From NCBI GenBank assembly GCA_009773645.1, contig WSYB01000001.1:1-64000 (forward strand): a stretch of DNA of 64,000 nucleotides, in the 5' to 3' direction. The translations under genes and the position numbers were made by a program. Below are positions 6,356 through 60,857 of this stretch, piece after piece (position 1 is the stretch's first letter; each line of letters begins with the position of its first letter). The notes under the pieces were generated by a model. The model made no database searches and was not told the origin of the DNA. It was given only the letters and a program-made list of their open reading frames with translations. The DNA comes from Geobacteraceae bacterium (GTDB lineage: Bacteria; Desulfobacterota; Desulfuromonadia; Geobacterales; Geobacteraceae).

Positions 6356-6438
6356 CACGAAAAACGAAAAATGCAAAAGATATTTTTAAATCTGTTCCAA
6401 GTTCGATGTTCCTCAAACCTCGAACCTCGAACCTTGAA
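6356..6438. repeat. Heptamer repeat array (acpP-fabG spacer)
   Basis: One flank has ACGAAAA, ACGAAAA, ATGCAAA. The other has CCTCAAA, CCTCGAA, CCTCGAA, CCTTGAA (6411-6438), running up to the fabG stop. The middle (GTTCCAAGTTCGATGTTCC) is largely complementary to the right array, so the RNA can fold back. Same period of 7 as the other arrays in this window. Confidence 0.75.
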
Positions 6439-7176
6439 CTACATGTACATGCCGCCGTTTACACCAATCACCTGGCCGGTAATATAGCCGGATTGTTCAG
6501 AAGCGAGAAAGAGTACGGCATTGGCGATATCGTCAGCGGTTCCCAGGCGTTCAAGGGGAATCTGGACCAAGAGTTCCTGCTTGACCTTTTCCGGAAGGGC
6601 TTCTGTCATATCGGTTGCGATAAATCCGGGGGCAACGGCATTCACGGTTACATTACGCCTGGCCAGCTCACGGGCGTTGGATTTGGTCAGTCCCATCAGC
6701 CCCGCTTTGCTGGCGCAGTAGTTGGCCTGCCCTGAATTTCCCATCTGTCCGACAACGGAGGCAATATTGATGATACGGCCGTACCTCTGCTTGCTCATGA
6801 CCTTGGCAGCGGCACGGGAGCAGAGAAACGCCCCTTTGAGATTTACATTCAGAACCGCATCCCATTCCTCGTCCTTCATGCGCAAAAGGAGCGCGTCCCG
6901 GGTAATGCCGGCGTTATTCACCAGAATATCCACGCGGCCGAATGACTCCACCGCACTATCGATCATGCGCTCCACATCAGCGGATACGGTCACATTCCCC
7001 TGGACGGCAACAGCCTCTCCACCCTTTTCCCTGATTTCGGCAACCATTGCCTCGGTTCCTTCCAGGCTGACGTCAACCGCAACAATACGAGCGCCGTTGG
7101 CCGCCAGCGCCAGAGCGATGCTGCGGCCGATACCTCGTGATGCGCCGGTTACAATGGCGACTTTTCCTTTTGGCAT
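6439..7176 (-). CDS. fabG: 3-oxoacyl-[acyl-carrier-protein] reductase
   Basis: NADPH-dependent reduction of beta-ketoacyl-ACP in fatty-acid elongation. 245 aa classical [11 protein letters not shown] cofactor motif, NNAG, catalytic Ser in [11 protein letters not shown], and YCASKAG with the Tyr/Lys pair. The C-terminus VNGGMYM is typical of FabG. ATG at 7176 is chosen because AAAGGAG lies 7 bases upstream; a TTG three bases earlier is too close. Follows fabD by 44 bases. Confidence 0.97.
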
Positions 7177-20140: not shown

Positions 20141-22813
20141 CTATAGTGTTGCAGCGACCTTTTCGATCTCGAATGCCTCGATGATATCGCCGGTCTTGAT
20201 GTCGTTGTAGTTTTCCAGCGAGATACCGCATTCGTAGTTGGACGCCACTTCTTTCACGTCATCCTTGAAACGGCGCAGACTGGCCATTTTGCCCTCGTAA
20301 ACGACCACGTTGTCACGCAGCAGGCGAACCTGGGCGTTTCGCACCATCTTGCCGTCCGTAACATAACATCCGGCGACATTTCCATGCTTGGGAACGGAAA
20401 ATACCTCGCGGATTTCCGCCCGGCCCAGGTGTTTTTCACGGAGAGTCGGCTCAAGGAGCCCTTCCATGGCCTTTTTGATATCATCAACCGCATCGTAGAT
20501 GATGTTGTAAAGGCGGATGTCGACCCCTTCCTTCTCCGCCATCGCCTGCGCCTTCACTTCCGGGCGCACGTTAAAGCCGAGAATGATGGCATTACTGGCT
20601 GTGGCGAGGTTTACGTCCGTCTCAGTGATGGCTCCAACCGAGGCGTGGATAACGTTCAGGCGGATGGCGTCGGTAGAGAGCTTGCGCAATGATTCGGAAA
20701 CCGCCTCGACGGAACCATGGACGTCCCCCTTGACGATGGTATTGAGCTCCTTGACCTCTCCCTTCTGGATCTTTTCATACAGCTGCTCCAGGGAAAGCCT
20801 GCTCGATTTTGCCAGCGCCGTCTCACGGATCTTCTGCTGGCGGTGCTGGGCGATTTCCTTGGATTGCTTCTCATCGGGAAGAACCACGAAGACATCGCCG
20901 GCATCGGGCACACCGGTAAACCCTATCACCTCCACGGGCATGGCCGGGCCTGCGGCCAACACCTTGTCGCCACGGTCGTTCTGCATTGCGCGGACCCGAC
21001 CTGAGTGAACCCCGGCGACAAAATAATCACCGGTCTTGAGGGTCCCTTCCTGGACCAGCACGGTAGCCAGCGGTCCACGGCCCCTGTCCAGCTTCGCCTC
21101 GACAATGGTGCCGCGGGCGGGCTTATTCGGATTGGCCTTAAGCTCAAGCACATCAGCCTGGAGGAGCACCATCTCCAGAAGCGCCGGCAGATTGATCCGT
21201 TTCTTGGCTGAAACTTCGACGAATATGGTATCGCCGCCAAACTCCTCCGGAACGAGGCCGAGTTGGATCAACTCCTGCTTGACCCGGTCAGGCTTGGCTT
21301 CCGGCTTGTCAATCTTGTTGACTGCGACGATGATCGGAACGCCGGCGGCCTTGGAATGGTTGACCGCTTCCCGGGTCTGGGGCATGACGCCGTCATCGGC
21401 AGCCACCACCAGAATGACGATGTCAGTGACCTTGGCTCCCCTGGCGCGCATAGCGGTAAACGCCTCGTGTCCCGGCGTGTCGAGGAAGGTGATTTTTCTT
21501 CCGTTCAGCTCCACGTCGTAAGCGCCGATATGCTGGGTGATGCCTCCCGCCTCGCCGGCAATGACGTTGGCTTCGCGGATTGCATCCAGGAGCGAGGTCT
21601 TGCCGTGATCCACATGCCCCATGATGGTTACCACAGGGGAACGTTTCTGAAGGCTCTCCGGCGCATCGGGAGCGGCTTCCAGCATTACATCCAGGTCAAG
21701 GGCGACATTTTCGATCTCATAGCCGAATTCTCCAGCCAACAATGTTGCAGTTTCAATATCTAGAGGATGGTTTATGGTGGCCATCATCCCCATTTTCATC
21801 AGGGAACGAATGAGGTCGTTCGCCTTTATCCCCATTCGTTTGGCCAGTTCACCCACGGTGATGGTTTCGGAAATCTTGATGATGCGCTTGATGGCCTTGG
21901 GGATTGTAATCTCGGTCTTCCGCCCCTCCGGAGCGCGTCCCCTCTCCTTCTTCTTCCCCTTGCCTGCACGGGGACCAGGCTCAAAGACCCGCTCGCGCTT
22001 TTCCAGGAGCTCGGCCTTCTTTAAGGCCTCTTTCTTTTTGACGTCAGGGGCACCCTTCTTGACACCCTTTCCTATTTCCGAGACCGGCGGCAGTTCTTTT
22101 CCCTTGCGTCCCTTCTTGCGATCCTCCGGCATTACAGGCACTTCCACCGGAGCCGGCATGGCCGGCCTTCCCGGGCCCCGTGACGGTGCTGGCCGTTCGA
22201 AAGGCCGCGACGGTGCCGGCCGTTCCGTACCACGTGCTGGAGCAGGTCGTTCGGAAGGACGCGACAGGGCCGGACGGTCCGTACCACGTGGTGGAGCAGG
22301 TTTTTGAAACTCCTTCCGCTCGGGCCTCACTTCCCTCGGTTGTGCTCCCTGGATTTCAACCCGGCCGAGAATAACGGCCCTGGTGGGAGTAGCCTTGGTC
22401 ACGGGATGCTCCTCCAGATGGACGGCAGCAGGTTTCTCCAAAACCGGAGCCGCTTCCTTTACCGGCTCTTTGGTCTCTTCTTCCTTGCTAGGAGCGGCTT
22501 CCTCGGCTTTGGCCATTATTTTTTCTTCAACGGGAGGTTCCGGAGCTGCAGGCGCTTCAGGAGGAGGCTCCACAACCTTGGCCCGACGCCGTATGAGTGT
22601 TGTAGTCACACGAACTTCTTCCTTTACTTCGCTAATCGGAGCAGGAGCCGCAGCAGGAGCTTTCGTCGGCGCCATCAGTTTATTGGCATCCGCTTCATCA
22701 ATAACGGCCATGTGGTTTTTTACCTCAACCCCTATGTCCTTCAATCTGGACATAAGCTCCTTGTTATCAATGCCCATCTTCTGTGCCAGCTCATATACGC
22801 GGATTTTACTCAT
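20141..22813 (-). CDS. infB: Translation initiation factor IF-2
   Basis: 890 aa GTPase that places initiator tRNA on the 30S subunit. N-terminal IF2_N motif ([20 protein letters not shown]), a long Pro/Arg/Glu-rich linker (about residues 65-300) with degenerate RPAPSRG-type repeats, a second IF2_N, then the G domain ([40 protein letters not shown]) and domains II-IV. The repeat linker is variable in length across species and here is GC-rich. The ATG overlaps the ylxRQ stop (ATGA). Confidence 0.97.
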
Positions 22814-32086: not shown

Positions 32087-32473
32087 TCAGCTCCCCGGCT
32101 CACACTTCTTGACGCCGATGACCTCATGGATCTGGGCGACGATGGTCAGGGGGTCGATCGGTTTCTCGAAGTAGCCGGTGCAGCCGGCCGCCAGAATCCG
32201 CTCCCGGTCCCCCATCATGGCGTGGGAAGTGATGACGATTAAGGGAACGGAGCCGTCGGCCGGGGAATTGCGGATCCGCCTGGTCACCTCGAACCCGTCG
32301 ATGTCCGGAAGATTGATGTCGATGACGACAAAAAAGTATTTCTCCTTCAGGGCGAGCTCGACCCCCTCCAGACCGGTTTCGGCGGCGGCGACATCATACC
32401 CATCCCTCTTGAGGGCGTAGGTGATGAGCCGCAGGTTGTCCCGGTTATCCTCGATGACCAGCACCCGTTTCAT
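32087..32473 (-). CDS. CheY-like response regulator
   Basis: 128 aa single receiver domain. Acidic pair Glu8-Asp9, phosphoacceptor Asp52 (VVIDINLPDIDGFE), Thr/Ser in ITSHAMMG, Lys in FEKPIDPL. No output domain, so it signals by protein contacts. It is the last gene of a three-gene signalling operon; its start overlaps the stop of the phosphatase gene by 4 bases. The operon order suggests phosphorylation by the kinase at 34093-36735. Confidence 0.92.
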   Translation of the reverse strand: MKRVLVIEDNRDNLRLITYALKRDGYDVAAAETGLEGVELALKEKYFFVVIDINLPDIDGFEVTRRIRNSPADGSVPLIVITSHAMMGDRERILAAGCTGYFEKPIDPLTIVAQIHEVIGVKKCEPGS

Positions 32474-34089
32474 AGGTCCTCCTTGCAGTACACGACCAAT
32501 ACCGTCAGGTCGTCCGGGGGAGGGGCCGCCAGGGCCGGTATGGCAGTAAGCCGCTCAACCATCTCCAGGGAACTGCCGGCCCCCGCCAGACGGTCTGCCA
32601 GCACTTCCCTGGTGAGCTCCAACTCCGGCCGGGCGTCGATCAATCCGTCGCTGTAAAGTACCAGGACATCACCCCGTTCGAAGGTAAGCGCCCCCTCCTG
32701 GTACCTTTCCCGGGACGGCACCCCGAGCGGGAGGCCGCGCGGGAGGAGCTCTTCAACCGCGCCATTGGCGCGCCGCAGGAATACGTAGCCGTGCCCGCAG
32801 TCCACGTAGGTCAGGGTGCGGCCGGCCGCATTGAGCCGGGCGTGGAAGAGGGTAACGAAGCTCTCGGAGCTTTCCAGGTCGTGCCGGAGGGCGTACTCCA
32901 CCAGCTGCATGGCCGTTTCCGGCTCGTGCTGAATGCTCAGCGACCGGACGGTGGCCCTCACCTCGGCCATTAGCACGGCGGCGGCCATGCCGCTCCCCAT
33001 CACATCGCCGAGGGTCAGGGTGACGATGCCTGGGGCCGCTTCCTGCCAATCGTAGAAATCGCCACCCACCTGGTGGGCGGGAAAGCAGCCGGCAGAGATC
33101 TCGAAGCCGGGAATGACCGGGGAGTGGCGGGGGAGGAGCTTCGCCTGCACCTCGGCGGCGCACATCAGTTCCGCCTGGAGCAGGTAGCGCTTCCTCTCGC
33201 TTTCCCGCAGCGCTTCTTCCGCCCGTTTCCGCTCGCTGATGTCCCTGATTATTCCGATGTTCCCGGTCGGGACCCCCTCCTCGCCCAAACGTTTGATGAC
33301 GCACAGCTCGGCCATGAAGGTCCTGCCGTCCTTCTCCCGGCCGCCCACCTCCAGGACCTTCGCCTTGCCCGGCTCTGTGAGATCGGCGAGCTCCGCGCCG
33401 GCCGCCCGGTACCCTTCGTCATCGGCATAGAGGAGGCGGGAGTTCCTCCCCTGCACCTCTTCCAGCTCATAGCCGAAGGTCTCCCGCAATGCCGGCTGGT
33501 TGGCGTCGAGAATGATGCGGTTGTCGTCGGTGACGATAATGACGTCCCGGATGCTGTTGAAAAGGTTGCGGTAGCTCTTCGCGCTCTGCCGTATCTCCGC
33601 ATTGGCCTTTTCCAGTTCACTCACCTTCTCCTCGATCTTGGCGGTGATGATGTGGGAATACTGGCGCAGGTACTCCTCTTCCTCCGCGATCAGCCCGGCC
33701 TTTGCCGTTCTCCGCGCCGGTTTCTCCCTCTCAATGACGGCCCTGATCTCCCGCCAGAGTATGTCGGGCTCTTGCGGTTTCACCATGAAGGCATCGGCCC
33801 CCAGTGCCAGGGCGAGCTTTTCATCCTTGTCGCCGGTGTAGACCGCGGAGTAGAAGATGAAGGGGATCTTTTGCAACTCCGGAGCCACCTTGATCCGGTG
33901 CAGGAACTGGAAACCGTCCATACGCGGCATGAGCGCGTCGGAGACGATCAGGCCGGGCCTGCGGCTTTCAGCCATCTCCAGCCCCTCTAAGCCGTCTCCC
34001 GCTTCGATGACCTCGCACCCCTGCCGCTCCAGCACGTATCGCAGAATCTTTCTGTCCTCCGCATTGTCATCGACCACCAGTACTTTCAT
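32470..34089 (-). CDS. Response regulator with PAS and SpoIIE-type phosphatase domains
   Basis: 539 aa. Receiver (residues 1-120, Asp51 in LIVSDALMP), a coiled-coil linker (EEYLRQYSHIITAKIEEKVS), a PAS domain (about 170-290), a second coiled coil, then a PP2C/SpoIIE-like serine phosphatase (about 320-530, HQVGGDFYDW, GDVMGSGMAAA, VLVLYSDGLIDARP). Such RsbU-like proteins act on anti-sigma-factor antagonists or STAS proteins. No STAS or RsbW gene is in the window. Its ATG follows the kinase stop by 3 bases. Confidence 0.92.
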   Translation of the reverse strand: MKVLVVDDNAEDRKILRYVLERQGCEVIEAGDGLEGLEMAESRRPGLIVSDALMPRMDGFQFLHRIKVAPELQKIPFIFYSAVYTGDKDEKLALALGADAFMVKPQEPDILWREIRAVIEREKPARRTAKAGLIAEEEEYLRQYSHIITAKIEEKVSELEKANAEIRQSAKSYRNLFNSIRDVIIVTDDNRIILDANQPALRETFGYELEEVQGRNSRLLYADDEGYRAAGAELADLTEPGKAKVLEVGGREKDGRTFMAELCVIKRLGEEGVPTGNIGIIRDISERKRAEEALRESERKRYLLQAELMCAAEVQAKLLPRHSPVIPGFEISAGCFPAHQVGGDFYDWQEAAPGIVTLTLGDVMGSGMAAAVLMAEVRATVRSLSIQHEPETAMQLVEYALRHDLESSESFVTLFHARLNAAGRTLTYVDCGHGYVFLRRANGAVEELLPRGLPLGVPSRERYQEGALTFERGDVLVLYSDGLIDARPELELTREVLADRLAGAGSSLEMVERLTAIPALAAPPPDDLTVLVVYCKEDL

Positions 34090-34092
34090 CGG

Positions 34093-36735
34093 CTACTCCT
34101 GTCCCCTGTTCAGCGTCATCGGGATTTTCATTACAAACCTGCTGCCGCGGCCGTATTCGCTGGTGAAGGTGATCTCCCCCCGCAGCACCTCCGCAACCAG
34201 CTTTCTGGTCAGGTAGAGGCCGAGGCCGGTGCCGTAGACCTTTGTCATGAGCAGCGATTCGAGGCGGACAAACGGCTTGAAGATCTTTGCCTTGTCCTCC
34301 TCTCTGATGCCGATGCCGCTGTCTTCGATACTGATTTCGACGAAATCGGCTTGAGGATCGAGGTTCGAGGACCGAGGTTCTAGGAGTTCTTCATTCTCTC
34401 CCCGCTCCTCGTTCCCCGCGCCTCGGACCATCCGTGCGCTGACGCGCACGAAGCCCCGTTCCGTATACTTAGCCGCGTTGCTCAGCAGGTTGAGGACGCA
34501 CTGCAGAAGCCGGCGCCGGTCGGTGTTTATGCTTTGCCGCAGGTTGTTGACCTCCAGTTCCAGCCCCTTGTCCCTTATCTCCTTCTCCAGGGCGGTTACC
34601 GCCTCCGCGATCAGGTCATGGAGATCGAACTCTTCTCCCCGGACCTCGATCTGTCCGGCCTCGATCTTCGACACATCGATGACGTCGTTGATCAGCATCA
34701 GCAGGTATCTGCCGGCGCGCAGCACGGTGGCCATGTTCTCCTTCTGCTCATCGTTCAACGGTCCAACCCATTCGTTGAGGAGAATGCTGGAAAAACCGAT
34801 GACCGAGTTGAGCGGGGTCCGCAATTCGTGGCTCATGGAAGCGATGAACATCGACTTGAGGCGGTCGAGCTCCATGAGCTTGCGGTTGGCCTCCTCCATC
34901 TCTCTGGTCCGTTCCGTCACCTTCTTTTCGAGGGTGGCGGTTTGGAACAGGGTCTCCTCATGGAGGCGGGCCGCCTCGATGAGGAGCGCCACGTGGGCGG
35001 TCACGGTTTCCAGGAGGCGGAGGCTCCGCTCGCTCGGCTTCTTATCGGTAGTGGTGAAGACGCACAGCACGCCGACGCATTTGCGCCTCGGGGTGACGAG
35101 GGGAAAGGCGGCGTTAAAGCGGATATCCGCCTGGCTGCTCTCATAGCCGGTCGCGACCCGAAGAACCGCTTTACGGTCCGGGAGGATGAGCGGTTTGAGC
35201 TCCCGGGCGCAGCTCCCATAGGCACACTCCCCGATCCGCATCATCCGGTTGGCGAGGTCGATGACCTCAACCCGGCCGGTGCCGTGATGGGCCGCAAGCT
35301 GCAGGATTCCGTCGGGGGCCAGGAGGCAGATGCTCCCCTCTTCCAGGCCGGCAATCTTCAGGGACTCTTCCAGGACCCGCGCGAGGATTTCCCGCTGGTC
35401 GAGAATGTTCGCGTAGGCGGTGACCACCCGGTTGATGGCGGAAAGCTCCTCGTTGGTCGCCTTCAGCGCTTCCTCCGCTTCTTTTCGTTCGGTGATGTCC
35501 GCAACGAGGCCGTCGTAGGCGACTAGGCGCCTTTCCCGGTCGTAGCGGGGGACCGGGGTGTTCTTGATCCAGTGAATCCGGCCGTCCTTGTGCATGATGC
35601 GGTGCTCGATGGGGGGAGCTTCTCCCCCCGCAAGTACTTTAGCGGCCTGGTCCAGGACGGCTTGCCGGTCATCCTCATGGACCATGCGCAGCCAGAAGCC
35701 GGGGTCGGCGGCGTACTCGTCGGGGGCATAGCCGGTCACCGCCACGCACCCCGGTCCGTGCGACGTGCCGGAAGGCCTGCCGTCCTCCACCCGGACCGTA
35801 TAAATGTAGTCCGTCACCGACTCGAGGAGACGGCGGTAGCGCGCCTCGCTCTCCCTGAGGGCCTCCTCTGCCTCCGTCCGTTCTGCTATTTCTTGCGACA
35901 GCTGCGCGGTCCGTTCCGTTACCCGCTGTTCCAGCAATGCGTTGAGCCCTTTCAGTTCCGCCAGGGTCTGCTGGTAGATGAAGAAGAGGTAGTAGAGGAT
36001 GTGGAGAAATGCCACCTGCCGCAACAGGTGCCAGAACCACCAGTCGGCAAACCATATCTCGGAGAACGGAAACAGAATGCCGGCCATGCCGAAGAGGAGG
36101 CAGAGGCTGGCGAACAGGAAGTCGTCAAAGCCTTTTGCGGAGCAGTACCGGCGAACGAAGTAGATTGCCGCGACTAGGAAGAAAAATCCTCCGAGGGAGG
36201 TGATGGCTTTGGCGGCGGGAGTAAAGACATTCTGGCCTATCATTACCGGAAAAAGATCGGGAAATGCGATCGCGAGATATCCGAGACCGCCGACAGTGGC
36301 AACGGTGACAAGCGGCAGCAGGTCGGTTGCGTGCGACCGGGAAAGACGCGACGGCAGCCAGACGAGGGTGAACAGGAAGCCGCCGGTCAAGGAGGACGCG
36401 CAGCGCAGCCAGACGAAAGTGGTATTAACCGTCTGTACGGCATGCAGCCCGTCCAGCATCCCAATGGCGAGGAGCCCGCTGGCGATCCAGATGTGGTGAT
36501 CCATGCCTCTGCTCTGTTTCCTCAGGAAGATGAGGAGGGCGGCCAGCAGGAAGGCGGCCTGCACCCCCAGCGCTTCCAGGAACGCGTGGAGCGGTTCGTG
36601 AAGCAGACGCCAATCGCGGAAGAACAGACGCAGGAACACCGTACCGCCGACCGGGATGACAACCCCCAGGAGCAATATGCCGAGTATGCCGCGTTTAAAC
36701 CTTTTTGTCGCCGGACCTCTCTCCATTCCGCCCAT
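34093..36735 (-). CDS. Membrane sensor histidine kinase (MASE3-like, PAS, GAF, HisKA, HATPase)
   Basis: About 880 aa. N-terminal eight-helix membrane domain like MASE3 (residues about 15-265), a coiled coil (LNALLEQRVTERTAQLSQEI), PAS (about 290-420), GAF (about 440-590), HisKA with ASMSHELRTPLNSVIGFSS, and HATPase_c (NAAKYTERGFV, DSGIGI, GTGLGLYLTRKLV). The ATPase domain has an extra segment (GAGNEERGENEELLEPRSSN) encoded by a heptamer array at 34351-34430. ATG at 36735 is a likely start; a GGCGGGAAG site is close. Operon with the phosphatase and CheY genes. Confidence 0.92.
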   Translation of the reverse strand: MGGMERGPATKRFKRGILGILLLGVVIPVGGTVFLRLFFRDWRLLHEPLHAFLEALGVQAAFLLAALLIFLRKQSRGMDHHIWIASGLLAIGMLDGLHAVQTVNTTFVWLRCASSLTGGFLFTLVWLPSRLSRSHATDLLPLVTVATVGGLGYLAIAFPDLFPVMIGQNVFTPAAKAITSLGGFFFLVAAIYFVRRYCSAKGFDDFLFASLCLLFGMAGILFPFSEIWFADWWFWHLLRQVAFLHILYYLFFIYQQTLAELKGLNALLEQRVTERTAQLSQEIAERTEAEEALRESEARYRRLLESVTDYIYTVRVEDGRPSGTSHGPGCVAVTGYAPDEYAADPGFWLRMVHEDDRQAVLDQAAKVLAGGEAPPIEHRIMHKDGRIHWIKNTPVPRYDRERRLVAYDGLVADITERKEAEEALKATNEELSAINRVVTAYANILDQREILARVLEESLKIAGLEEGSICLLAPDGILQLAAHHGTGRVEVIDLANRMMRIGECAYGSCARELKPLILPDRKAVLRVATGYESSQADIRFNAAFPLVTPRRKCVGVLCVFTTTDKKPSERSLRLLETVTAHVALLIEAARLHEETLFQTATLEKKVTERTREMEEANRKLMELDRLKSMFIASMSHELRTPLNSVIGFSSILLNEWVGPLNDEQKENMATVLRAGRYLLMLINDVIDVSKIEAGQIEVRGEEFDLHDLIAEAVTALEKEIRDKGLELEVNNLRQSINTDRRRLLQCVLNLLSNAAKYTERGFVRVSARMVRGAGNEERGENEELLEPRSSNLDPQADFVEISIEDSGIGIREEDKAKIFKPFVRLESLLMTKVYGTGLGLYLTRKLVAEVLRGEITFTSEYGRGSRFVMKIPMTLNRGQE
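34351..34430. repeat. Heptamer array in frame within a histidine kinase gene
   Basis: About 11 units of 7 with alternating GAGGATC/GAGGTTC-type sequence on one side (from 34353) and CCGCTCC/TCGTTCC/CCGCGCC on the other (to 34430). The arms are partly complementary (GAGG- against CCTC-). Encoded residues are about 769-795 of the kinase, between strands of the ATPase domain. No stop codon arises. Confidence 0.8.
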
Positions 36736-36920
36736 TCTTCCCGCCGACGTTGGCGCCAAGCCCCGATTACCGGCTGATAAATGTGCTTGCATCTCAATTG
36801 TAGCATGGAAATGGAGGTGTGCAACGATCCACTGCGGTCAACGGCACAGGCGAGCTGAAGGTGTAAAAAGCAGTTGCACGATTCGAATGTGTCGATGGTT
36901 ATTTTTCATCGGTCTGCTGG

Positions 36921-40234: not shown

Positions 40235-40290
40235 CCGTTCCCCGTTCCCCGCTTTTCGTTTTCCGATTCCCGGTTCCCGATTCCCGGTCC
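40235..40290. repeat. Heptamer repeat array (pyrD-pyrK spacer)
   Basis: Eight consecutive units: CCGTTCC, CCGTTCC, CCGCTTT, TCGTTTT, CCGATTC, CCGGTTC, CCGATTC, CCGGTCC. The last unit abuts the pyrK stop codon (TAG at 40293-40291). It is a single arm, with no complementary partner nearby. Confidence 0.85.
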
Positions 40291-41106
40291 CTAGATCCAC
40301 TGGAGTTCACGGAAATCGAACACCGGCCCGTCCTTGCAGACGCACCGATAGTCCGGGCGGTAATCCTCATGTTCACGTCCTTTTACGACGCATCCAAGGC
40401 ATGCCCCCATTCCGCATGCCATGTACGCTTCCAGTGATACCTGGCAGGGGATGGCGTTACGTCGGGCGATCTCCGCCACAGCCTTGAGCATCGGCATCGG
40501 ACCGCAGGCAAACATGGTCTTTGCCTGATTCTTTTCCGTCAGGTGCCGCTCCATTACCTCGGTCACCAGGCCGCTCACCCCCAGGGTGCCGTCGTCGGTG
40601 GCCACGTATGTCTCGACCCCAAGACGCTCGAATTCGGTAACGCAGAGGATATCCTCCCTGGTTCTGCCGCCGATGAAGAGCCTGACCGGGGATTCCTTTA
40701 CCAGCTCTTTGGCCAGGTAGTAAAGGGGCGCAAGCCCGACCCCCCCTCCCACCAGTATCTTTTCTTCAGTGGGGGTGCCCTGTTCAAACCCCTTCCCCAA
40801 AGGGCCGAGAATGTCCAGGTGATCACCGTGATGGAGGGTTGCGAGCATGACTGTCCCCCTGCCGACAACGCGGTAGAGTATCTCCAGATAGGTCTGCTCG
40901 CTTCCGTCTCCAAATTCCGCAACGGAGCTTCCCAGGTCGAATATTCCGAAGGGACGTCTTAACAGCGGGTCTATGGCATCCCGCACCTTTACCATGACAA
41001 ACTGACCCGGCCTTGACGTCGACAGTCCGTGGGGAGCTGTCAACCGCATCCTGTAATAACCCGGAGATGCCTCTGTATTGGAAATAACCATGGATTTAAA
41101 CTGCAT
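40291..41106 (-). CDS. pyrK: Dihydroorotate dehydrogenase B, electron transfer subunit
   Basis: 271 aa, ferredoxin-reductase-like FAD/[2Fe-2S] protein that passes electrons from PyrD to NAD+. FAD motif [11 protein letters not shown] part [11 protein letters not shown], and a C-terminal iron-sulphur cluster with Cys in [14 protein letters not shown] and [10 protein letters not shown]. Complete and of normal length. Overlaps the rimI stop region (11 bases). The pyrK-pyrD spacer is mostly a repeat array. Confidence 0.95.
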
Positions 41107-48729: not shown

Positions 48730-48797
48730 AGGCAAAAGGCAAAGGGCAAAAGGCAAAACATATTTTCCGTTGGCCTTTTGCCGTTAGCCCTTTGCCG
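48730..48797. repeat. Heptamer hairpin array (purQ-purF spacer)
   Basis: Left arm AGGCAAA, AGGCAAA, GGGCAAA, AGGCAAA. Loop ACATATTTTCCG. Right arm TTGGCCT, TTTGCCG, TTAGCCC, TTTGCCG. Four units each, arms complementary (GGCAAA against TTTGCC). It begins three bases after the purQ stop codon on the minus strand. Confidence 0.9.
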
Positions 48798-56097: not shown

Positions 56098-58173
56098 TTA
56101 CCTCAGCAGATTCATATAATCCAGCGATGCGTCTCCAATAAGCGGATTCAGGGGGAGGAGAATATGGAAGGTGGAGCCGGGGTACTGGGAAGGGTTGTAG
56201 CCGGGCGATTCAACCCAAATCTCTCCGCCGTGCATTTCAACAATCCCCTTGGCAATGGCGAGCCCCAGCCCTGCGCCCTTGGCCTTGAATGCAACCTTAC
56301 CGGAGCTGTGCTCTTCAATTTTTCCTGCCTCGTAAAACTTCTCAAAAATACGAAGCTGATCTTCTCTGTCAATTCCGATGCCGGTATCCTTGACGGTAAC
56401 TTCCACATAGAGGTGGTGTTCCTTGCCGATATTCACTACCGGTTTCATGTGATCGGAATCGTCGCTCTGCTTGCTGCGAAGCAGGTACTTGGCGCTGGTG
56501 GAAACGGTTATACAGCCGCCGTCAGGGGTAAACTTTATGGCATTGCCCAATACATTCGACAAAAGCTGCATGAGTCTCAAGCTATCCCCTCTGATAGTCG
56601 GAATGGATTCATCCAGCTGCAAAACCAGCCCTTGCTTCCTCATGGAAAAAAAGAACCGCAGCTCATTGACGGTTGACTCAACAATGTGATTCAGGTTGAC
56701 ATCATCCAGCTTGAGCTGAAGTCTCTTTTCATCAATCATGGATACGTCCACCATATCCTTGATTATATTATCCAGCCGGGCTGCGGCATTGGCGATATTC
56801 TCCACCATTTCGAGCACTGTCTTGTCAACCTTGTCGTCCATATCCGTCAAGATCAGTTCGGCATATCCCATTATTACGGTCAAAGGTGTTTTCAACTCGT
56901 GGGAAGCGAGCCCCAGGAAAGAATCTTTCATTTTATTGAGCCTTGCCAGATCAGCGGCGCTCTTCCCCAGATTGTTCAGAATCTCCCTCTCCTTGGTTAT
57001 ATCCCGGAATATGGCCTGAACCAGTCGTTCACTACCGCTTTTTATACTGCTGACATTAACCCTTCCCAGCACCGACTCCCCATCCTTTTTCACAAACTGC
57101 ATCTCTTCGGCGATGTGCAAGCCATTGAGGGCATCTTTGAACATCTTGTGCATTCTCGGAATGTTTTCCACATCCAGTAACAAGAGCAGCTTGGTCAATG
57201 GCAGACCAACCATTTCCTGGGCGGCATAGCCGAAAAACTCTTCAGCCAGCTTATTAACCATCTTGACGATTTCGTCGTCACCGATAACCACGATGGCATC
57301 GCCTGAATCCTCCATGAGGGATTTATAGAGCTCTTCCGACCTTTCCAGTTCCAGGCTCAGACTCTCCAGTTTCAGATATGAGGAGTGAAGCTTGTTATGT
57401 GCGCCCTCCAGATCTCTATAGCTTTTTTGTACCTCCTCTTCCCGAAATTTAAGGGATTCGGACATGAAGTTGATATTTTTTGCCAGCTCATTGAATTCGT
57501 AAACCGGAACCTCTTCTATTCGTGTGTCAAACGCGCCTTCGGAGATCTTTTTAACGCCGTTCAGCAGAGAAGAAATCGGCTGCATGATGCTTTTTTTCAC
57601 AAAAACCACCACAAGGGTAAACGCAACGAGAAAAAAGAAAAGGAGGATAAAGATGGAACGAAGTATCATCTTTTCGATTTTATTGGAAACCTCGTTCTCC
57701 GGAAAACCGATGTGGATAAGGGCAAGATGTTTGCCATCGGGAGATTTTATCGGGGTGACCGTATCGTAATAACGTCTGTCAACGCCTATAAGACGGACTT
57801 GTTTCTGTGCGTTCAAAGTAAGGGATTCCACAATATGGTTGAAAGGGAGGCTGTTAAAGAAGGGATCACTGAGAAACAGGGTCTTCCCTTCCATATCAGT
57901 GATTACGCAGTAGTCGCCGGCCGGTGGATTGGCCCCCACCACTTCCCGGCATTTTTCGGTAATCCCGGGAATGTCTTTGATATCGATGCCCAGGCCGATG
58001 ACCTTTTCAATATTACCCTTAAGTGATGCGCCAAGACTTTGGGAGCTGAAAATGAGGGCCTTTTTATAGTCCCGCCGGTATGCGGCGATATCCATGCCGG
58101 TATTTGCGAGGATCGTGAGAAAGAGGATTATGAACGAAAAAAGGATTATCCTTTTTTCCAGCGTGTTTTTCAT
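56098..58173 (-). CDS. Membrane sensor histidine kinase (periplasmic sensor, HAMP, PAS)
   Basis: 691 aa. TM1 (residues about 8-28), a periplasmic sensor of roughly 145 residues that looks Cache-like, TM2 (about 175-197, ILLFFFLVAFTLVVVFVKK), HAMP, coiled coil, PAS (about 280-400), HisKA (GLASHELKTPLTVIMGYAEL), HATPase_c (GNAIKFTPDGG, DTGIGI, GAGLGLAIAKGIVEM). No receiver. No cognate response regulator is adjacent. A promoter lies just upstream; gap is divergent. Confidence 0.92.
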   Translation of the reverse strand: MKNTLEKRIILFSFIILFLTILANTGMDIAAYRRDYKKALIFSSQSLGASLKGNIEKVIGLGIDIKDIPGITEKCREVVGANPPAGDYCVITDMEGKTLFLSDPFFNSLPFNHIVESLTLNAQKQVRLIGVDRRYYDTVTPIKSPDGKHLALIHIGFPENEVSNKIEKMILRSIFILLFFFLVAFTLVVVFVKKSIMQPISSLLNGVKKISEGAFDTRIEEVPVYEFNELAKNINFMSESLKFREEEVQKSYRDLEGAHNKLHSSYLKLESLSLELERSEELYKSLMEDSGDAIVVIGDDEIVKMVNKLAEEFFGYAAQEMVGLPLTKLLLLLDVENIPRMHKMFKDALNGLHIAEEMQFVKKDGESVLGRVNVSSIKSGSERLVQAIFRDITKEREILNNLGKSAADLARLNKMKDSFLGLASHELKTPLTVIMGYAELILTDMDDKVDKTVLEMVENIANAAARLDNIIKDMVDVSMIDEKRLQLKLDDVNLNHIVESTVNELRFFFSMRKQGLVLQLDESIPTIRGDSLRLMQLLSNVLGNAIKFTPDGGCITVSTSAKYLLRSKQSDDSDHMKPVVNIGKEHHLYVEVTVKDTGIGIDREDQLRIFEKFYEAGKIEEHSSGKVAFKAKGAGLGLAIAKGIVEMHGGEIWVESPGYNPSQYPGSTFHILLPLNPLIGDASLDYMNLLR

Positions 58174-60787: not shown

Positions 60788-60857
60788 AGTGAAGAGTGAA
60801 CAGTGAAAAGTGAATAAATATCTTTCCGATTCACCTTTCACCCTTCACCTTTCACGC
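60788..60857. repeat. Heptamer hairpin array (pgk-tpiA spacer)
   Basis: Left arm AGTGAAG, AGTGAAC, AGTGAAA, AGTGAAT. Loop AAATATCTTTCCGA. Right arm TTCACCT, TTCACCC, TTCACCT, TTCACGC. Four units each, arms complementary (GTGAA against TTCAC). Fills almost the whole spacer. Confidence 0.9.

Follow-up and report, generated by a model that had tools for sequence, protein, structure and literature searches.

How a short period-7 repeat came to lie in frame within the ATPase domain of a sensor histidine kinase is the question raised by one gene of a Geobacteraceae bacterium. The gene lies in the window, by which we mean the whole 64,000-nucleotide stretch of DNA that was analysed. Our preferred answer, to which we assign a probability of about 0.8, is that the repeat represents a copy of a hairpin element dispersed in this genome, with arms made of heptamers, that landed in frame in a permissive loop before the D-box of the kinase. 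The features of the locus are as follows.

34093-36792, minus strand: sensor histidine kinase of 899 amino acids (open reading frame list and Pfam)
34348-34428, minus strand: in-frame insert of 81 bp (27 codons, residues ~789-815, VRGAGNEERGENEELLEPRSSNLDPQA), placed by alignment with orthologues and paralogues
34395-34428, minus strand: arm 1, degenerate heptamers of class GAACGAG (GTCCGAG GCGCGGG GAACGAG GAGCGGG GAGAGA)
34381-34394, minus strand: spacer of 14 nt between the arms (ATGAAGAACTCCTA)
34353-34380, minus strand: arm 2, heptamers of class GAACCTC (GAACCTC GGTCCTC GAACCTC GATCCTC), partly complementary to arm 1
34333-34347, minus strand: GATTTCGTCGAAATC, encoding DFVEI in the beta strand that follows the insert and forming a 6-bp inverted repeat

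The kinase and its insert

The kinase consists of a MASE3-like membrane part, whose MASE3 match scores under the Pfam curated cut-off, followed by PAS, GAF, HisKA (residues 646-713, Pfam) and HATPase_c (758-893, Pfam) domains. All of its boxes are intact, namely the H-box HELRTPL at 655, the N-box at 768, the D-box DSGIGI at 824 and the G2 box GTGLGL at 854. The gene belongs to an apparent operon (window 32087-36792, minus strand) that also encodes a REC-PAS-SpoIIE phosphatase and a single-domain response regulator. When the HisKA-HATPase part, minus the loop, is compared with that of an orthologue from the related genome G004 (L009, 70% identical), dN is 0.095 and dS is 0.306; the core is thus under purifying selection, and the gene is kept by selection. 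Despite this constraint, arm 1 of the insert is now unlike its counterpart in the orthologue.

A first-pass annotation had recognized a heptamer insertion in frame inside this ATPase domain, and both the insertion and its DNA coordinates are right. Its length of 27 residues also holds, although the numbering given (769-795) is about 20 residues too low. The repeat had been read as a single array, but it consists of two heptamer arms that form an inverted pair across the spacer, with AAGCC following arm 2 on the coding strand. Tandem Repeats Finder (TRF) reports the arms as period-14 arrays at 34353-34385 and 34399-34425. The insert occupies the beta-hairpin just ahead of the DSGIGI box, between strands FVRVSARMV and FVEISIED. 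Its units are degenerate, those of arm 1 more so than those of arm 2, and about five of seven positions pair between the arms. The corresponding RNA folds as a hairpin (z = -3.3), with none of 200 shuffles equally stable, and two other kinase copies are also RNA hairpins (z = -5.6 and -5.2).

An AlphaFold model of the kinase fragment (36 sequences) has a confident core, with a mean pLDDT of 87, and its predicted fold matches histidine kinase cores. Strands are predicted at positions 146-154 and 182-189 of the fragment, and the loop between them is of low confidence, with pLDDT values of 52 and 68 for ten-residue blocks. The model thus predicts that the insert is a disordered loop on an intact kinase fold.

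Dispersed heptamer elements of the genome

In the window, ten segments reach a lag-7 score of at least 12 and eight reach at least 14, compared with zero or one at lags 4-6 and 8-13. At the lower threshold, no segment was found in 20 simulated order-2 Markov sequences and three in total were found in 60 order-3 sequences, which rules out chance or low complexity as the origin of the heptamer signal. Likewise, 0.94 Mb of the same genome, sampled as stretches chosen around kinases, contains 84 lag-7 segments compared with 0-8 at lags 5, 6 and 8-11. The insert itself might nevertheless be considered a chance or ordinary low-complexity loop unrelated to dispersed elements, given that the window copy is degenerate and that its score of 12.4 is among the weakest of the ten. 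This idea, already refuted by the counts, is hardly credible when simulated sequences almost lack such segments, when less degenerate twins of the insert are present in kinases on contig 28 (C28), and when intergenic copies share both the classes and the order of the arms (for example, L059 8788-8876).

Approximately 86-90 heptamer elements (107 arrays) are present in the 0.94 Mb sample, and 70 of 86 are intergenic. The class AACCTCG is found at ~25 sites genome-wide with at most one mismatch. A strict ungapped test, which undercounts degenerate pairs, identifies inverted pairs in 21 of 86 elements, and many elements are hairpins. The window includes the following representatives.

60788-60855, plus strand: intergenic element with the same two-arm architecture as the kinase insert (AGTGAAN x4, spacer, TTCACCT x4), z = -5.1
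48730-48797, plus strand: intergenic element with the same two-arm architecture (AGGCAAA arm, spacer, TTTGCC arm), detected by TRF
6411-6439, plus strand: intergenic array of the unit class of arm 2 (CCTCGAA)
40235-40291, plus strand: element with two arms, of classes CCGTTCC and CGGTTCC, located either at the 5′ end of a predicted open reading frame or just upstream of the true start

A long CCTCTCA array of ~18 units (L068:4721-4877) runs across an assembly gap of Ns and is likely length-variable. A 54-bp tandem duplication in the window (22194-22301, two copies, 87% matches) is unrelated to the heptamers.

Between genes, the copies occupy tandem or convergent gaps. Only 2 of 106 intergenic elements from three genomes lie in divergent gaps, which make up 138 of all 685 gaps of at least 80 bp (Fisher p = 1.6e-7). 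Stop codons act as a weak filter at best and are not favored as the main cause of the distribution, because 23 of 33 intergenic elements of at least 45 bp are already open in one or more of the six frames. Mobilisation by Y1/RAYT transposases was also rejected, as no heptamer array was observed within ~1.5 kb of nine Y1-transposase genes where 3.3 were expected.

Several known systems resemble these elements. Rickettsia palindromic elements are short dispersed palindromes that are tolerated both between genes and in frame within conserved protein genes (PMC2229807, PMC3733652). The first-pass annotation had drawn this parallel, and it is apt: the elements described here are present in many dispersed copies, fold as hairpins, and include an in-frame copy in a conserved gene that has relatives lacking the insert. 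However, the Rickettsia elements are 105-146 bp long whereas ours are ~50-90 bp, and only ours have arms made of heptamer arrays and fill one protein site repeatedly in many hosts. We claim a likeness by description and not membership in the Rickettsia group proper.

REP elements of the GTAG and CGTC families are hairpins that chiefly occupy tandem and convergent gaps on the 3′ side of genes, with some inside open reading frames (PMC3733652). The elements of this genome share the preference for tandem and convergent over divergent gaps, but differ in the period-7 arrays of their arms and in the lack of arrays beside the nine Y1 (RAYT) genes; because of this lack of association, REP membership is not claimed either.

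Among related bacteria, Geobacter metallireducens carries heptanucleotide elements of four to five tandem units, located between and within genes, that include GGACCGG x4 (Gmet_H4) and a class 3 with paired sites on opposite strands, and that were proposed to be regulatory RNAs and sites for global regulators (PMC2700814). Unit number, inter- and intragenic locations and opposite-strand pairs are all shared with the elements described here. In the passages of that account considered here, there is no mention of kinase hairpins, of recurrence at one site or of a change of class between genomes. The units given there are GGACCGG and MTYCTGA. In our genome ACCGGGG makes up 4 of 107 arrays, a single-arm GGGACCG array lies in a hypF-like gene (see below), and the kinase inserts belong to other classes. 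In Nostoc and Xanthomonas, abundant period-7 arrays (GGGGAYT / GGGAATC) are enriched between genes and prefer about four units (PMC4692102). Those arrays are direct, rich in G and potentially able to form quadruplexes, while the inverted pairs observed here form ordinary hairpins.

Recurrence at one kinase hairpin

If the repeat was inserted into an established protein, relatives should lack it and similar insertions might exist in other kinases, as the first-pass annotation had proposed. Both expectations were borne out, the second one strongly, in this genome, in genomes G004, G020 and G011, and in public genomes. The orthologue L010 (63% identical) and nearer paralogues have shorter loops without heptamers, with 32-45 residues between N-box and D-box compared with 56 in the window kinase. 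The orthologue L009 carries an insert of another unit class at the same place, and no loop of equal length without heptamers was found in the comparison with L009 and L010. Heptamer inserts are present in 3 of the ~73 kinases found in the sample of this genome, always in the hairpin before the D-box. These are the window kinase and two C28 paralogues that share 62% identity across 261 residues. The distance between N-box and D-box is usually 32-36 residues in insert-free kinases and 53-57 in filled ones. Another kinase in the window (56101-58173, minus strand) has a 56-residue N-to-D loop with no heptamer signal, and therefore long loops have other origins too. Elsewhere, about ten filled kinases are present in G004, one in G020 and one in G011.

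Public genomes were searched with the pattern DF[VI]EI..D[ST]G.G and the matches were pooled with those from other loci. Among the distinct kinases in this set, 31 have a heptamer signal (lag-7 score of at least 10) in the 100 bp upstream of the match and 97 do not, although these counts are not unbiased frequencies because the pattern selects one strand sequence. Filled kinases occur in five phyla (NCBI names): Nitrospirota, Myxococcota, Methylomirabilota, Bacteroidota and Thermodesulfobacteriota.

When 119 kinase cores were placed on a tree inferred without the loop, 11 changes of the heptamer label were required, at least seven of them forced by starred branches. With a mixture model on a tree of 73 rows, 12 changes are needed, and a single clade of filled kinases is rejected (AU p = 6e-41). 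Such counts do not separate gain from loss, but three facts favor gains. First, a filled kinase (L257_581) and an empty one (L190_473) are sisters at a support of 97 with cores that are 86% identical, and the insert is of class CCCTCAT, which is matched 64 times in the genome of the filled kinase and twice in that of the empty one. Second, the unit class of an insert tracks its host genome: AATGCGG is matched 137 times in G004, several of whose kinases it fills, and once in the genome of the window, where it fills none and the three filled kinases use AACCTCG/AACGAGG. Third, another repeat occupies the same site. The kinase hairpins of L182 and L194 contain a 150-bp palindromic repeat (ATTGCGAGG...CTCGCAATGACA), and the L182 insert is an unrelated dispersed repeat that matches 35 places in its own genome. 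The inserts at this hairpin thus had several separate origins. In L238, from Nitrospiria bacterium Hainich-H41-bin024-1, a PPLGKGGIEGG stretch is nested between heptamer arms and looks like a second dispersed repeat, and a similar stretch in L156 is a putative repeat only. A target-site duplication was sought at the inserts, but none was definable because the loop flanks differ.

These data also bear on the possibility that the inserts descend, vertically and through duplication, from a single ancient insertion in an ancestral kinase domain, with the units altered later in place by slippage and homogenisation. All seven sampled members of the NtrB-like clade carry inserts, of differing classes, the window kinase and L009 are both filled with different units, and a single base per unit may separate neighbouring classes (GAACCTC and GAAACTC). 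As an explanation for all kinases, however, a single event conflicts with the rejection of one clade, with the 11-12 changes needed, with the close empty and filled pair, with inserts that match the class spectrum of their host genome, and with the unrelated repeat at the same site. We therefore consider the ancient insertion quite improbable, although an early insertion in each subfamily, followed by change of its units in situ, is possible for the NtrB-like clade and for the window kinase and L009, and such change may occur within other single subfamilies.

Targeting, selection and tolerance

Heptamer elements are not exclusive to kinases, as six other genes host them internally. Gene functions and names in the following list were assigned by eye.

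L408:2460 (G000 C78:20460): heptamer element in frame in a loop of an RND/MMPL-type exporter
L409:1934 (C36:93934): heptamer element in frame in a RecB/AddA-like helicase
L401:1497 (C27:21097): heptamer element in frame in an E2-acyltransferase-like linker
L061:15462-15500: single-arm array (AAGCGGG x5) in frame in a ValRS-like gene
L030:4888-4916: single-arm array (GGGACCG x4) in frame in a hypF-like gene
L061:19687-19716: single-arm array in frame in an NtrC-like gene

Judged by eye, the elements in these hosts are mostly at loops or linkers. The existence of other hosts indicates that the kinase hairpin is preferred rather than exclusive. Three of eight internal coding elements of this genome lie in kinase hairpins, which constitute 0.3-0.5% of coding sequence (p ~1e-6 to 1e-5, or ~2e-4 to 6e-4 if the C28 paralogue pair is counted once). 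These values are indicative, because a kinase-centred sample is pooled with a genome-wide look at one class; the E2-like linker, a later addition, makes the share 3 of 9 and leaves the order of magnitude unchanged.

Such a preference could originate from the DNA. The 6-bp inverted repeat at the DFVEI codons (GATTTC NNN GAAATC) directly follows many kinase inserts and might be seen by a mobilising nuclease. Perfect arms are present in 17 of 31 filled and 14 of 97 insert-free kinases (p = 2e-5), or 15 of 27 and 14 of 52 when matched for GC content (p = 0.015), and the distance from arm 2 to the repeat is nearly constant. However, these associations ignore relatedness among the kinases, and the inverted repeat is largely dictated by the codons it comprises. 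Inserts also lie beside imperfect versions (L036 7493: GCTTTTATAGAAATC) and in other proteins, and no such motif was noticed by eye beside intergenic elements. DNA-directed insertion is therefore unlikely. It is similarly doubtful that the D-box hairpin is a true integration site, where host repeats of several unrelated families are copied next to palindromic DFVEI codons; if it were, the same protein loop would time and again, and in different phyla, be recast in the type of repeat peculiar to its host.

Selection offers another route to recurrence, with the insert serving as a useful linker or its mRNA hairpin tuning kinase translation. The repeated filling of one site and the stable RNA hairpins of the coding copies noted above are consistent with such a role. 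We nevertheless regard it as very unlikely, given that neither peptide sequence nor unit class is conserved between orthologues, that most kinases lack an insert, close sisters included, and that elements also occupy linkers and loops of other proteins. Function of intragenic REPs has been disputed on similar grounds (PMC3733652).

Tolerated insertion of REP- or RPE-like elements at an unusually permissive site is the most likely explanation. Most elements lie downstream of genes, as REPs do, and one copy would have landed in frame in the hairpin loop of the window kinase. Coding copies would persist only if the number of inserted base pairs is divisible by three, both arms are free of stop codons and the peptide falls in a tolerant loop. 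The hairpin, presumably solvent-exposed, may be permissive enough for heptamer elements, and likewise for dispersed repeats unrelated to them, to have entered it independently in many kinases, each insert having the unit class of its own host genome. Its separate filling in other kinases and other phyla makes this loop a natural hot spot for protein insertions made from repeats. The proposal that the arrays are tolerated in coding DNA is supported by this recurrence and by the intact predicted kinase fold. The effect on the kinase is probably near neutral, and the elements probably spread by copying.

Beyond the original observation, the analysis shows that the element is an inverted pair, that one site is filled recurrently in several subfamilies and phyla, and that unit classes are host-specific. 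Palindromes in coding DNA were previously known as isolated curiosities spread over unrelated proteins, whereas in these kinases a single structural site is filled repeatedly, in differing subfamilies from at least five phyla, by repeats of the host's unit class. For annotators, such kinase loops call for caution, as they are repeat-derived and not conserved. Together with their empty sisters, the filled kinases provide natural replicates for learning how noncoding repeats become protein, how repeat hairpins move, and what the catalytic domain of a kinase tolerates.
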